From Anaerofilum hominis (lineage in GTDB: Bacteria > Bacillota > Clostridia > Oscillospirales > Ruminococcaceae), in NCBI RefSeq assembly GCF_014287275.1, contig NZ_JACONZ010000002.1:186001-250000 (forward strand): 64,000 nt of DNA, in the 5' to 3' direction. The notes under the pieces are model-generated. The model was given only the letters and a program-made list of their open reading frames with translations. It did no database searches and was not told the origin of the DNA. Position numbers and translations under genes: made by a program. This document shows, piece after piece, positions 3,973-25,095 of the stretch. The number at the start of each line of letters is the position of its first letter. Positions within the stretch are counted from its first letter, which is position 1.

Positions 3973-3990
3973 CACAGCAAAGCTGCGCCT

Positions 3991-4059
3991 GTTGTCATTG
4001 TACCTCATTTACGGTGAGGTGTAGAAACTATCCGCCATATCCGGATATTAAACAACAAC
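3991..4059 (-). ncRNA. Purine riboswitch aptamer (guanine/hypoxanthine class)
   Basis: The minus strand shows the three-way junction expected: P1 GTTGTTGTT paired with AATGACAAC, P2 ATCCG/CGGAT closing loop GATATGG, the invariant J2/3 AGTTTCTAC, and P3 ACCTCA/TGAGGT closing CCGTAAA. The ligand-discriminating base in J3/1 (equivalent of position 74) is C at 4000, which specifies guanine or hypoxanthine rather than adenine. The neighbouring 21-75 pair is U-A instead of the A-U in the Bacillus xpt aptamer. It lies in the leader of the NCS2 permease. Confidence 0.93.
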
Positions 4060-4074
4060 TATCGACAAGTAATC

Positions 4075-4103
4075 ATTATGGGGGATGAGGAGGAAAAAAG
4101 CAA
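4075..4103 (-). promoter_or_regulatory. Promoter of the riboswitch-permease transcript
   Basis: Minus strand TTGCTT, 17-base spacer, CATAAT; the predicted start falls about ten bases before the aptamer P1 helix. Confidence 0.65.
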
Positions 4104-20200: not shown

Positions 20201-20410
20201 TCAGCCCACCGACACGACCTCATAGCCGGCCTCGGTAACGGCGGTGACCAGCTTTTCATCGGCGACGTCGGCGGCCAGCGTCACCACGGCCTGTTTGGAC
20301 TCCAGGTCCACCGCCACGGCCGACACGCCCTCCACGGCGGCCAGCGCTTTTTCCACATGGGCCTTGCAGTTGTTGCACATCATGCCTTCGATTTTCAGGG
20401 TCTTGTTCAT
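20201..20410 (-). CDS. Possible separately translated CopZ copper chaperone (nested)
   Basis: Inside the fused gene, ATG 20410 is preceded by AAAAGGAAG at about ten bases and opens a 69-residue product of exact CopZ length with the MxCxxC copper site. Translation from this internal start would yield a free chaperone in addition to the fused domain. Whether it is used cannot be seen from sequence. Confidence 0.45.
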   Translation of the reverse strand: MNKTLKIEGMMCNNCKAHVEKALAAVEGVSAVAVDLESKQAVVTLAADVADEKLVTAVTEAGYEVVSVG

Positions 20411-22789
20411 CACGGACACTTCCTTTTCTTTTTTGTTGTTTTCTATCTCGGACGGTGCGGCCGCCGCGATGGGACAGCCGCTTGCGGGGGACGGGAGGGG
20501 ATGACGGAATTTGGGCCGGAACAGTTTTAGCCGCAGCGCGTTGGACACCACGCAGAAAGAGGAAAGGCTCATGGCCGCCGCGCCAAACATGGGGTTCAGC
20601 CTCCAGCCCAGCAGGGTGTAGAACACGCCGGCCGCCAGGGGGATGCCGATGGAGTTATAGAAGAATGCCCAGAAGAGATTTTCCTTAATGTTGCGGATGA
20701 CCGAGCGGGAGAGCTGGAACGCGGTGACCGCGTCCAGCAGGTCGCTTTTCATCAATACCACGTCGGCGCTCTCGATGGCGATGTCGGTGCCCGCGCCGAT
20801 GGCGACGCCCACGTCTGCGCGGGCCAGGGCCGGGGCGTCGTTGATGCCGTCCCCGATCATGGCCACCTTTTTGCCCGCCTGCTGCAGGGCGGCGACCTCC
20901 CGCTCTTTGTCCTGGGGCAGCACTTCGGCCACGACCCGGTCGATGCCGAGCTGGCCGCGGATGGCCTCGGCGGTGCGCCGGTTGTCGCCGGTGAGCATGA
21001 CCACATCCACGCCCAGGGCCCGGAACTCCTCGATGGCGGCACGGCTGGTGGGCTTGACCACGTCCGCCACCGCGATCACGCCCAGCGGCCTGCCGGCCCA
21101 GGCGAAAAACAGGGGGGTCTTGCCCTCGTTTGCCAGCGCGTCCGCGTCCGCGCCGAAATCGGCGGCGGAGAGGCCGTTCGCCTCCATCATCCGCAGATTG
21201 CCCGCCAGCACGGGCTGCCCATCCACCTGCCCGGTCACGCCCTGGCCGGGGACGGTCTCAAAGCCCGCGGCCGCGTCCGGCTCAAGCCCTTCGGCGCCAG
21301 CGCGGCGCAGGATGGCGGCGGCCAGCGGGTGCTCGCTGGGGCGCTCGGCGGCGGCGGCCACCCGCAGCAGTTCGCGCGGGTCTGCGCCGGGCGCGGGCAG
21401 CAGGTCGGTGACCTCGGGCTTGCCCTCGGTGACGGTGCCGGTCTTGTCCAGCACCACGGTGTTCACGGTGTGCGCCACCTCAAGGCTTTCGGCGGATTTG
21501 AAGAGGATGCCGTGCTCGGCGCCCTTGCCCGTGCCCACCATGATGGCGGTGGGGGTGGCGAGGCCCAGTGCGCAGGGGCAGCTGATGACCAGCACCGCAA
21601 TACCGATGGAAAGCGCAAAATCGATGGGATAGCCCAGCAGCAGCCAGACCGCCGCCGCGGCCGCGGCGATCGTGATGACCACCGGCACAAAGACGCCGCT
21701 GACCTTATCCGCCAGCTTGGCGATGGGGGCCTTGCTGGCGTTGGCGTCCTCCACCAGCTGTACGATCTGGGCCAGCGTGGTGTCGTCGCCCACTTTCAGG
21801 GCCCTGCATTTCAGATAACCGGACTGGTTGATGGAGGCGGAGATGACCTTGTCGCCGGGGCCTTTTTCCACCGGCAGGCTCTCGCCGGTGAGGGCGGACT
21901 CGTCCAGCGCCGCATTGCCCTCCAGGATCACGCCGTCCACCGGGATGCGCCCGCCGGGCCGCACGATGACCACGTCGCCCACGACGACCTCCTCCACCGG
22001 GAGCTCGAGCTCTTCACCGTCCCGCTCCACCACCGCGGTCTTGGGAGCCAGGTCCAGCAGCTTGGTGATGGCGTCGCTGGTGCGTCCCTTGGAGCGGGTC
22101 TCCAGATACTTGCCCACGGTGATCAGGGTCAGGATGGTGCCGGCCGATTCAAAATAGAGGTCCATGTGGTAATGAGCGACCAGCTCCATGTCGCCGTGGC
22201 CCAGGCCCCAGCCGATGCCGTAGATGGCCACAACGCCATACACCACCGCCGCGGCGGACCCGATGGCGATCAGCGAATCCATGTTCGGCGCGCCGCGGAA
22301 CAGGGTCTTGAAGCCGACCTCGTAGTATTTGCGGTTCACATACAGGATGGGCAGGGTCAGCAGCAGCTGGGTCATGGCAAAGGAGACGGCGTTTTCGTGC
22401 CCCAGCAGGAACGCGGGCAGCGGCAGCCCCATCATATGCCCCATGGAGACGTACATCAGCGGCACAAGAAAGCAGAAAGAGACGATCAGCCTTTGCTTCA
22501 TGGCCGCCAGCTCGGCTGACATCACGCCGCCGGGCGCCTCTTTGGGCGGGGCCGCGCGTTTTGGCCCCGCGCCGCGGGGCTGCTGGGGGGCGGCGCCATA
22601 ACCGCCGGCCTTGACCGCGCTGCAGATCTGCGCTGCGCTGAGCTTGTCCTCCTCATATTCCACCAGCATGGTGTTCTGCAGCAGATTGACCGCCACCGAC
22701 GAGACGCCGGGCAGTTTGCGCACGCTTTTTTCCACGTGGGCGCTGCAGGCCGAGCAGGTCATGCCGGTCACGTCGAATTTTTGTTTCAT
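20201..22789 (-). CDS. copA: Cu(+)-exporting P-type ATPase fused to a C-terminal CopZ-like domain
   Basis: The 862-residue protein has an N-terminal heavy-metal domain (GMTCSACS, Cys12/Cys15), the transmembrane CPC motif in ISCPCALGLATP, the phosphorylation site DKTGT, SEHPLA and GDGINDAPALARAD, all diagnostic of a P1B-1 copper ATPase that exports Cu(I) from the cytosol. After the last helices and a polar linker ENNKKEKEVSV, the frame runs without a stop into a second metal domain (GMMCNNCKAHVEKAL). Normal CopA ends before that. ATG 22789 was preferred over 22795 and 22828 because AAAGGA is ten bases away. Promoter and CsoR box lie upstream. Confidence 0.95.
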   Translation of the reverse strand: MKQKFDVTGMTCSACSAHVEKSVRKLPGVSSVAVNLLQNTMLVEYEEDKLSAAQICSAVKAGGYGAAPQQPRGAGPKRAAPPKEAPGGVMSAELAAMKQRLIVSFCFLVPLMYVSMGHMMGLPLPAFLLGHENAVSFAMTQLLLTLPILYVNRKYYEVGFKTLFRGAPNMDSLIAIGSAAAVVYGVVAIYGIGWGLGHGDMELVAHYHMDLYFESAGTILTLITVGKYLETRSKGRTSDAITKLLDLAPKTAVVERDGEELELPVEEVVVGDVVIVRPGGRIPVDGVILEGNAALDESALTGESLPVEKGPGDKVISASINQSGYLKCRALKVGDDTTLAQIVQLVEDANASKAPIAKLADKVSGVFVPVVITIAAAAAAVWLLLGYPIDFALSIGIAVLVISCPCALGLATPTAIMVGTGKGAEHGILFKSAESLEVAHTVNTVVLDKTGTVTEGKPEVTDLLPAPGADPRELLRVAAAAERPSEHPLAAAILRRAGAEGLEPDAAAGFETVPGQGVTGQVDGQPVLAGNLRMMEANGLSAADFGADADALANEGKTPLFFAWAGRPLGVIAVADVVKPTSRAAIEEFRALGVDVVMLTGDNRRTAEAIRGQLGIDRVVAEVLPQDKEREVAALQQAGKKVAMIGDGINDAPALARADVGVAIGAGTDIAIESADVVLMKSDLLDAVTAFQLSRSVIRNIKENLFWAFFYNSIGIPLAAGVFYTLLGWRLNPMFGAAAMSLSSFCVVSNALRLKLFRPKFRHPLPSPASGCPIAAAAPSEIENNKKEKEVSVMNKTLKIEGMMCNNCKAHVEKALAAVEGVSAVAVDLESKQAVVTLAADVADEKLVTAVTEAGYEVVSVG

Positions 22790-22874
22790 TCTCATCCTAT
22801 CCTTTCTCTGTGGGGCGATCGCCGGCAAAACGGGCCGGCGGGATACCAGGCTGTTGAAAGGACAGCCGTTTCAT

Positions 22875-23390: not shown

Positions 23391-24749
23391 TTATTTTGAA
23401 ACAAGCGTTCTTCTTTCCCATCCCTTACTGCGAAAATAGAGAAACCCCACAATAGCCGGAATGATCGGAGAAAGAGCCTGTCCGCAATAAATACCCGGGA
23501 ATCCCATATTAAGTGAAAAGGCGAGAAGCCAACTCACGGGTAAGCGTACGATCACCGCGTCCAACAAGGCGTCCAGCATGGCGATATTTGCCGACCCTAT
23601 GCCGATCGCAAATGAGTCCAATGTGTACATCACAGCATAAACAAGGCTGTTTATCCCACAGCAGACCCGCAGATAGTAAATTCCATCCTTTACTGTTTGG
23701 GGACTGCTGCTGCCGAAAAGCAGAATCAGCTGTTCCGCAAAAATTTGGACGCCTGATACGACCACAAGTGTTGCGGAGACATTGAGCAGCAAACCCGTTT
23801 TGACTACTTTTCGTGCCCGTTTTATCTGACCTGCCCCGATACACTGGCCCGCCATTGCTGTAACCGCCTGTCCAATAGCCCAACAGGGCATACCGGCAAA
23901 AGTGTTGATCTGCAATCCCATACCGGAAGCTGCAGACACCGAAGTGCCAAATTGATTCAGCATACCTGTTACGATCAGATAGGCTGTGTTTACCACTGCC
24001 ATCTGAAAGGCTGTGGGTAAACCGACTTTCAGAATGGCGATCAGTTTATCCATTTGTAATGTGAATTTCTTCTGGCCGTCAGCATAAAAAAATACTTTAT
24101 GCTTCCGCAAGTAGAAAATTGAGATCACAAAAGAGATCCCTTGCGCCGTGATCGTTGCATAAGCGGCTCCTGCCGTTCCCATTTCCAGGGGACCCACCAG
24201 TAAAATATCCAGTATTACATTAACAAATGCAGCGATCCCAACGAAATAAAGGGGCGATCTGGAATCCCCCAGGCCTTTTAGAATGGAACAGACCGCATTA
24301 TATCCAAAGACAAAGACCGTTCCCCAGCAGATGATTTTCATGTAATCGCAGGCAGCCTGATAGGCGTCTGCCGGAATGCCTAACACTTGAAAAAGCGGCT
24401 GATAGAATGCCAAACTCACAACGGTTACAAGCAGCGCTGACGCAAGGGAGACCAAAGCCAGCGTTTGAAAAGTTTCAGCCTGTCCTTTCTTATCATTTGC
24501 GCCTTTATATTGAGCGATCAATACAGCTCCCCCCATCGTGAGGCCGATGCAGATGGAGTTGATAATATAGCATAGTTTGGATGCGTTGCTGATGGCCGCA
24601 AGACCCGCTTCTCCGACGGTCCGTCCAACCACCAACATATCTGCGACGTTATAAAAAGATTGCAGGAGATTTGCCAAAAGCAGCGGAAACGCAAAAGCGA
24701 CCAACCTTTTGGGCACGCTCCCGGTCAATAAGTTTTGTTCCTCAGTCAT
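23391..24749 (-). CDS. MATE family multidrug efflux transporter
   Basis: The 452-residue, twelve-helix protein begins MTEEQNLLTGSVPKRL and contains QSFYNVADMLVVGR and repeats of the two MATE halves (second half from about residue 235). MATE proteins export cationic drugs using Na+ or H+ gradients. ATG 24749 follows AAAGGGGA. Codon and base composition are much lower in G+C than the flanks, pointing to recent acquisition. A 310-base leader with its own peptide ORF and three terminators precedes it, so expression is probably induced by transcription attenuation. Confidence 0.93.
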   Translation of the reverse strand: MTEEQNLLTGSVPKRLVAFAFPLLLANLLQSFYNVADMLVVGRTVGEAGLAAISNASKLCYIINSICIGLTMGGAVLIAQYKGANDKKGQAETFQTLALVSLASALLVTVVSLAFYQPLFQVLGIPADAYQAACDYMKIICWGTVFVFGYNAVCSILKGLGDSRSPLYFVGIAAFVNVILDILLVGPLEMGTAGAAYATITAQGISFVISIFYLRKHKVFFYADGQKKFTLQMDKLIAILKVGLPTAFQMAVVNTAYLIVTGMLNQFGTSVSAASGMGLQINTFAGMPCWAIGQAVTAMAGQCIGAGQIKRARKVVKTGLLLNVSATLVVVSGVQIFAEQLILLFGSSSPQTVKDGIYYLRVCCGINSLVYAVMYTLDSFAIGIGSANIAMLDALLDAVIVRLPVSWLLAFSLNMGFPGIYCGQALSPIIPAIVGFLYFRSKGWERRTLVSK

Positions 24750-24769
24750 AGATCTGTTCCCCTTTCAAA

Positions 24770-24800
24770 GAAAAGAGGGCACACAAAACTGTGCGCCCTC
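24770..24800 (-). terminator. Leader terminator T3 before the MATE gene
   Basis: Minus strand GAGGGCGCACA/TGTGTGCCCTC then TTTTCTTTG, placed directly before the gene's ribosome binding site. Confidence 0.88.
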
Positions 24801-24828
24801 TGCGTGATTGCCTCAAAACAGGCAGAAC

Positions 24829-24860
24829 AAAAGGCCGCAAACAAAACATTGTCTGTGGCC
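24829..24860 (-). terminator. Leader terminator T2
   Basis: Minus strand GGCC-CAGACAA pairs with TTGTTTG-GGCC around TGTT with one mismatch, followed by TTTTG. Confidence 0.7.
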
Positions 24861-24900
24861 CGAACCGTTTGTTTTCTATTGTCGATTGGTCAAAAGGGTA

Positions 24901-24931
24901 TAAAAACCAAAGGCAGTCCCTGGCTGCCTTT
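24901..24931 (-). terminator. Leader terminator T1
   Basis: Minus strand AAAGGCAG/CTGCCTTT around CCAGGGA, then GGTTTTTAT. It begins only 11 bases after the leader-peptide stop codon. Confidence 0.85.
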
Positions 24932-24941
24932 GCCTCCCCGT

Positions 24942-25037
24942 TTATCCATCAACGCTCAGAAAAGGCTCCGCACAATGTTTCGTGGTATAAACTTGTGTGG
25001 AGCCAAAATCAATCGTAAATTTTCCGAATAACACCAT
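24942..25037 (-). CDS. Leader peptide of the MATE gene (31 residues)
   Basis: A short frame starts at ATG 25037 with a perfect AGGAGGTGA seven bases upstream and reads MVLFGKFTIDFGS, then QVYTTKHCAEPFLSVDG. The coding sequence contains a hairpin (GGCTCC-CACAA with TTGTG-GGAGCC, about 24963-25004) and ends just before terminator T1. Strong ribosome binding, small size and position fit a regulatory leader whose stalled translation changes leader folding, as in antibiotic-inducible resistance genes. The peptide itself is not one I recognise. Confidence 0.7.
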   Translation of the reverse strand: MVLFGKFTIDFGSTQVYTTKHCAEPFLSVDG

Positions 25038-25066
25038 GTTCACCTCCTGTCAACAGGACATTACCA

Positions 25067-25095
25067 ATCGTAAGCATTTTGGCGCCTCTTGTCAA
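25067..25095 (-). promoter_or_regulatory. Promoter of the MATE leader transcript
   Basis: Minus strand TTGACA, 17-base spacer, TACGAT with TG two bases upstream of the -10. The start falls about 25060, 20 bases before the leader ribosome binding site. Confidence 0.85.

Follow-up and report, generated by a model that had tools for sequence, protein, structure and literature searches.

A candidate ribosome-mediated attenuator upstream of a MATE efflux gene in Anaerofilum hominis, related to uup RNA and to the poxtA leader

What are a short open reading frame and three successive predicted terminators doing in front of an efflux pump gene? The stretch of DNA analysed here, called the window, comprises 64,000 nt from Anaerofilum hominis and carries on its minus strand a gene for a MATE family transporter, whose product has MatE domains and exceeds the subfamily cut-off. 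The original prediction read the region upstream of this gene as a translation-sensing attenuator. All the parts that it named, a promoter, a leader ORF with its Shine-Dalgarno sequence (SD), a hairpin inside that ORF and three predicted terminators before the MATE gene, are present on the minus strand (Table 1). Intrinsic terminators between leader and gene are what a transcription attenuator needs, and those found here are predicted hairpins with T tracts.

Table 1. Features of the leader unit and pump gene, in window coordinates
Feature	Position	Strand	Details
Promoter, sigma-70 type	25067..25095	-	TTGACA - 17 nt - TACGAT; -35 TTGACA 25095-25090, -10 TACGAT 25072-25067; 10/12 consensus matches
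Shine-Dalgarno of leader ORF	25040..25048	-	AGGAGGTGA; strong match
Leader ORF	24942..25037	-	31 codons, MVLFGKFTIDFGSTQVYTTKHCAEPFLSVDG; ATG 25037, stop at 24942
In-ORF hairpin H1	25004-24964	-	
Arm A of H1	24993..25004	-	GGCTCCACACAA; codons G-S-T-Q
Segment B	24972..24983	-	ACGAAACATTGT; part loop, part 3' arm of H1; complementary to T2 apex
3' arm of H1	24964..24975	-	TTGTGCGGAGCC
T1, terminator-like hairpin	24908..24932	-	directly 3' of leader stop codon
T2, terminator hairpin	24833..24860	-	GGCCACAGACAATGTTTTGTTTGCGGCC, then TTTTG; apex 24852-24841 complementary to segment B
T3, terminator hairpin	24774..24801	-	adjoins MATE ribosome binding site
MATE family efflux transporter	23391..24749	-	452 aa; TIGR00797 207.3 bits (cut-off 147.4); PF01554 157.7 (cut-off 24.9)

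Most relatives of the leader align with a start one codon later, which is GTG 25034 in the window. T2 of the window contains one A.C mismatch. The pump SD lies at about 24765-24759, so that T3 does stand next to the pump's own ribosome binding site, as had been claimed, with no overlap between the two. Folding of the minus strand between 25060 and 24750 gives -116.8 kcal/mol (z = -5.84), and none of 100 shuffled sequences was equally stable. Terminator-like sites number 18 versus 5.4 expected, a count that covers 3.5 kb on both strands and so describes the region as a whole, beyond the leader unit. The unit had also been described as A+T-rich relative to its surroundings, and the GC profile bears this out: 0.46-0.53 at 22.75-25.25 kb, versus 0.60-0.73 on the left (20.0-23.0 kb) and 0.50-0.66 on the right as far as 30 kb. 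Elsewhere on the same strand, window positions 3978-4075 match a purine riboswitch aptamer (RF00167, 57.9 bits), and at 20201-22828 the frame of a copper-type P-type ATPase continues into a CopZ-like HMA domain, which looks like a CopA-chaperone fusion.

A scan of genome contigs with the MATE protein yielded 50 loci, six of which (L001-L006; protein identity 66-84%) carry the leader. On the gene strand and at E≤1, a covariance model, R2, built from window-type leaders and the poxtA leader discussed below, recovered the window and the same six loci but none of the remaining 44, some of which are cut by contig ends. One of these (L008) starts downstream of the leader and retains T2 and T3, in another (L007) the protein match begins only at residue 131, and the remaining 42 are distant, with 32-41% identity or a 50-residue fragment. 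In genome searches with models R1 and R2, matches were found in six of the eight genomes carrying L001-L008, in 7 of 299 genomes of one family and 1 of 9 of a genus, in 11 of 247 of another family (three judged false: L073, L074, L076), and in 15 of 391 of a class (seven judged false: L082, L084, L086-L090). These ten, together with L112 and L125, were rejected by eye on their architecture and lie outside the set of 57 loci used from here on. That set is free of exact repeats of one stretch and includes many close kin (e.g. L114-L120), so that counts within it are not independent. A promoter with at least 10 of 12 consensus positions stands upstream of 45 of 55 leaders, versus 8 of 159 control windows.

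The leader had been thought unlike anything recognised. This did not hold, since it has kin both in Rfam family RF03060, the uup RNA, and in the leader of poxtA. The uup RNA motif was reportedly described in a 2017 survey. Its Rfam model spans 48 nt only, and includes neither a leader ORF start nor T2. The window scores 22.6 bits against it at 24965-25006 on the minus strand (E 0.049 for 501 nt), below the gathering cut-off of 36.8, and is therefore not a formal member; nor is its gene, a MATE gene, one for a Uup-like ABC-F protein. A match of 17.5 bits on the opposite strand was discarded as the mirror of the same hairpin H1. Among 20 loci tested, six gave a leader-strand match at E≤1 and 14, most of them window-type, gave none. 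L066 scored 23.8 bits and G004, which has a window-type leader, 32.3 bits (E 4e-4), both below the cut-off. Members above it precede ABC-F genes (L075 47.8, L083 40.3 and L085 57.9 bits) and MATE genes too (L069 47.4, L078 43.0 and L080/L081 54.9 bits, and also L091 and L092). Conversely, R2 recovers L069-L072, L075, L078-L081, L083 and L085 at 26-54 bits. By way of these intermediate loci, the G004 match and the recovery of uup-type loci by R2, the window leader is to be regarded as a divergent relative of uup RNA. The two are alike in the sequence and shape of H1; a GATG loop segment and its partner, found in uup RNA, are absent from the window type. RF03060 searches of four genome sets matched 15 of 391 genomes (14 above the cut-off), 3 of 299 (2), 7 of 150 (6) and 15 of 71 (14), and in each search none of 14 control genomes. 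According to the available part of a 2024 review, the motif precedes CD3359 of C. difficile (PMC11477304).

Downstream genes could be read in 55 of the 57 loci, and comprise 27 MATE, 26 ABC-F and two others, an acetyltransferase (L124) and a metallo-beta-lactamase-fold protein (L101). As the loci were found via the leader, this tally is not a census; many of the proteins run past the fetched stretch, and L111 was counted as ABC-F on a weak match of its longest ORF. One MATE subset (e.g. L091) is nearer to the MepA model, though below its cut-off. The idea that the leader is a feature of MATE genes in particular has therefore to be given up, related leaders preceding ABC-F genes in 26 of 55 loci. 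The two loci with other genes are peculiar in their leaders. At L101:1501-1700, a uup RNA match of 45.7 bits has a shifted leader frame, no clear T2 and the metallo-beta-lactamase-fold gene behind it, and looks decayed; at L124:1499-2224, where the gene behind the uup RNA match encodes a GNAT acetyltransferase, the leader is in the third frame and a terminator is present. On an IMG/VR contig filed as viral (L053), the leader is followed by the start of a MATE gene whose product is 85% identical over 75 aa to that of the window. Phages as carriers were otherwise discarded, as two phage records match a 25-nt stretch only.

A nucleotide search of plasmids matched 121 records, 117 of them from Enterococcus; among the 20 matches listed, 81 nt of leader align at 78% identity, and nothing else. 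In the two plasmid records inspected, the hairpin is followed after about 0.37 kb by the start of the ABC-F resistance gene poxtA, and in one of them the resistance prediction gives poxtA in three pieces. The poxtA leader region was itself found at 99% identity or more, mostly covered, in 121 of 125 matching records; the other four are from Acinetobacter, and the one of these among the matches listed shares 26 nt. This leader, of a gene for phenicol and oxazolidinone resistance on enterococcal plasmids, has promoter, leader, H1 and T2 apex in common with the window. It differs in its length of 43 codons, in T1 and T3, and in a gene unrelated to MATE. A closer counterpart is the MATE locus L065: over 360 aligned positions it shares 79% identity with the poxtA region (E 2e-75). 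The aligned stretch begins at the -10 hexamer and stops after the T tract of T3, and the -35 hexamers are also alike. It therefore looks as if an almost whole control unit was swapped between genes that are not related, and the earlier proposal of movement as a cassette can be upheld for the leader unit. The MATE gene behind the poxtA-like leader, at L065:1850-2000, has a frame that looks interrupted near its start. In loci of chromosomal type, too, the leader precedes ABC-F genes other than poxtA (L070, L072, L075, L079, L083, L085). The nearest solved structures to the L085 protein are YbiT, EttA, PoxtA and Uup, and these chromosomal proteins are putatively ribosome-protection-like.

If the unit senses translation, its ORF should be translated. 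In 14 distinct window-type leaders, pairwise single-difference codons among the nine that precede H1 were synonymous in 238 cases and non-synonymous in 87 (n=325). This synonymous fraction of 0.73 compares with 0.18 expected, and with 0.04 and 0.13 in the other frames, a pattern that argues for a translated ORF in the window-type group. A second set of three distinct leaders gave 6 synonymous out of 11 codon differences. In a further set of four distinct N-termini, none of 28 was synonymous, so no peptide constraint is seen there before H1; these come from the family of G849, which we guess to be Peptostreptococcaceae-like. In 51 of 57 loci the frame S-x-Q ... K/R-H/R-C-x-E can be read without a stop across H1 from a start lying upstream, and in 50 of these 51 the start codon has an SD match of at least 4 nt, the start having been picked to favour an SD. 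In the six others this frame is not open across B: L070 and L072 use another frame, L100 and L101 have a stop or a frame shift within H1, and in L113 and L124 B is read in another frame. At or next to arm A, all 57 loci have a codon for Ser, Ala or Thr, and 56 have one for Ser or Ala. The RNA sequence GCUCC partly forces this, since two of its three reading frames encode Ser or Ala. Translation across arm A is thus the predicted property that all leaders have in common. The original prediction would have suffered had the peptide and the hairpins not been conserved at homologous loci, which is not what the comparison shows.

We next consider how a translated leader could act on a terminator. 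Judged by eye, compensating changes occur in the lower stem of T2, whereas the apex, ACAATGTTTT, is mostly constant; this apex and segment B, AAACATTGT, are complementary. The position of T2 was assigned from hairpin strength only, inside a set span and with no reference to the leader, and T2 was found in 55 of 57 loci (L101 was left out by name and L108 is too short); for L110, L121, L122 and L123 this span was extended manually, and in the window, L056 and L081 an earlier search over a wider region had chosen T3 in place of T2. The apex is changed in L067, L107, L113, L123 and L124. When all 9-mers of the leader were scanned against the T2 apex, the top-scoring one lay no more than 2 nt from B in 38 of 47 distinct loci; ignoring ties, chance would put it there about 5 times in 110 at each locus. 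Own B:T2 pairs scored 7.74 versus 7.21 ± 0.09 for permuted ones, and none of 20,000 permutations was as high (39 distinct combinations, L113 dropped, kinship uncorrected). A compensatory change accompanies this fit: a leader G occurs with a T2 C in 10 of 15 cases and a leader A with a T2 C in 0 of 24, with the register set by best fit and several of the ten being kin. However, leaders with a non-consensus B fit their own T2 no better (7.29) than consensus T2s (7.56). In a per-locus shuffle test, complementarity reached p≤0.05 in 40 of 57 loci and p≤0.01 in 14; for some loci the best match falls elsewhere than in T2 (e.g. L067, L083, L085, L115, L116).

Another pairing concerns the 33 loci with an H1 loop of GATG or GGTG. 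This loop fits a segment 3' of the hairpin (7.24 versus 6.55, permutation maximum 6.97), with matched changes between the partners: GATGAAG/CTTCATC, GATGAGA/TCTCATC, GATGTAG/CTACATC and GGTGAA/TTCACC. Among the 33 it is absent in L113 and poor in L078, and the window type lacks it. As to T3, its region shares GCAGAGGGCGCAC in 8 of 57 loci (the window, L053, L054, L059, L063, L064, L066, L068), a likeness beyond what a terminator needs. No partner segment for this stretch was found in those eight loci, and by eye no pairing of T3 with other segments that would explain its passage was consistent.

The nascent RNA was folded up to the T2 apex in 49 of the 55 loci with T2, chosen for a complementarity score of at least 6. 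Masking arm A raised the median probability of B:T2 pairing from 0.01 to 0.98, with an increase in 43 of 49 loci and a decrease in none. With a ribosome at the stop codon, the median stayed at 0.01. In 11 of the 49 loci, poxtA among them (0.96), B:T2 was already the preferred pairing (P over 0.5) with no ribosome present. In full-length RNA, T2 beats B:T2 even with arm A covered (median P 0.00). Since T2 wins in the finished RNA, the switch would have to be kinetic and to rely on co-transcriptional pairing.

We favour, at roughly three chances in four, a ribosome-mediated transcription attenuator that controls T2. Most likely, the switch would turn the pump gene on when antibiotics stall ribosomes. 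In the absence of drug, ribosomes would clear the leader, H1 would re-form and hide B, T2 would fold as it is made and RNA polymerase would stop. A drug-stalled ribosome on arm A (codons G-S-T-Q) would cover A and leave B free just ahead; by geometry, A should be covered by a ribosome whose penultimate residue is the Ser or Thr encoded by arm A, and the edge of that ribosome should fall a few nt short of B. Free B could then pair with the apex and 5' half of the emerging T2 and slow or block its formation, so that the pump is transcribed. An identical mechanism is proposed for the ABC-F leaders of the uup RNA class and for the poxtA leader. The claim of a translation-sensing attenuator is in this way supported by comparison, through the synonymous leader differences, the conserved promoter and the B:T2 complementarity with its compensatory change. 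The nature of the inducer is more speculative. Linezolid stalls ribosomes with Ala, and less so Ser, in the -1 (penultimate) position, as stated in the portion of the source available (PMC8987054). Ser or Ala at arm A would fit stalling by phenicols and oxazolidinones, which is why these are our guess for the inducers.

Could H1 and its downstream pairings instead be the aptamer of a metabolite or drug riboswitch, with the ORF incidental? The pairing of the H1 loop in GATG-type leaders is pseudoknot-like, and uup RNA is grouped with riboswitch-like motifs in the 2024 review, which also states that further evidence for a riboswitch is absent (PMC11477304). We hold this to be unlikely, because the window type lacks the loop pairing and has a synonymous substitution pattern before H1, because 50 of the 51 in-frame loci have an SD-matched start (even if chosen to favour an SD), and because ABC-F neighbours point to drugs that act on translation.

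Less likely still is a classical amino-acid attenuator, in which scarce charged tRNA, for instance for His or Cys at K-H-C, would stall the ribosome. The motif K/R-H/R-C is indeed well conserved, but its codons lie on segment B. A ribosome stalled there would occupy B and so preclude B:T2 pairing, and L070 and L072 do not read these codons in that frame. Besides, the leader has no run of a single amino acid, and the downstream genes are not biosynthetic. Equally improbable, in our judgement, is an explanation without any regulation, in which ordinary terminators, next to an ORF that arose by chance, serve to insulate a pump acquired by horizontal transfer. The region is A+T-rich, and three successive terminators could merely insulate; yet leader, T2 apex and promoter are conserved across MATE and ABC-F loci, and leader and T2 change together.

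The ribosome-mediated attenuator has precedents, known to us from the available parts of the reports. The bmrB leader of bmrCD in B. subtilis exerts ribosome-mediated transcription attenuation on a drug exporter; like the window it has a leader ORF, alternative stem-loops, an exporter gene and control at the level of transcription, but the exporter is of the ABC type and the likeness is one of architecture (PMC4191407). The cplR and vmlR leaders, before ABC-F genes, similarly combine a uORF, a terminator and an antiterminator; unlike here, the uORFs have three codons (MR[I/M]; MIN), and those parts describe no uup-type hairpin (PMC10201436; PMC9226507). In the available portions of the open-licence literature, which leaves most subscription journals outside, neither uup RNA nor poxtA is described as having a leader ORF, and no MATE gene is described with such a leader in front of it (sources including PMC8987054, PMC10201436, PMC11477304, PMC4191407, PMC12428224, PMC11700844). 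The attenuator predicted in the window would thus be a variant of leader-peptide attenuation, one that is well supported by comparison.

A wider reading, to which we give even odds, is that uup RNA is the in-ORF hairpin of a widespread ribosome-stall attenuator and not a riboswitch, a mobile unit swapped whole between MATE and ABC-F genes, of which poxtA carries one. Since poxtA would carry such a unit, it and the pump should share ribosome-stalling inducers, most likely phenicols and oxazolidinones. An unexplained RNA family would thereby gain a concrete, testable regulatory mechanism, and leader-peptide attenuation would extend to MATE pumps. The comparison points to a control unit common to a Clostridia pump family and the mobile resistance gene poxtA, and the sharing of this unit predicts which drugs would raise the expression of the pump, ABC-F and poxtA genes.
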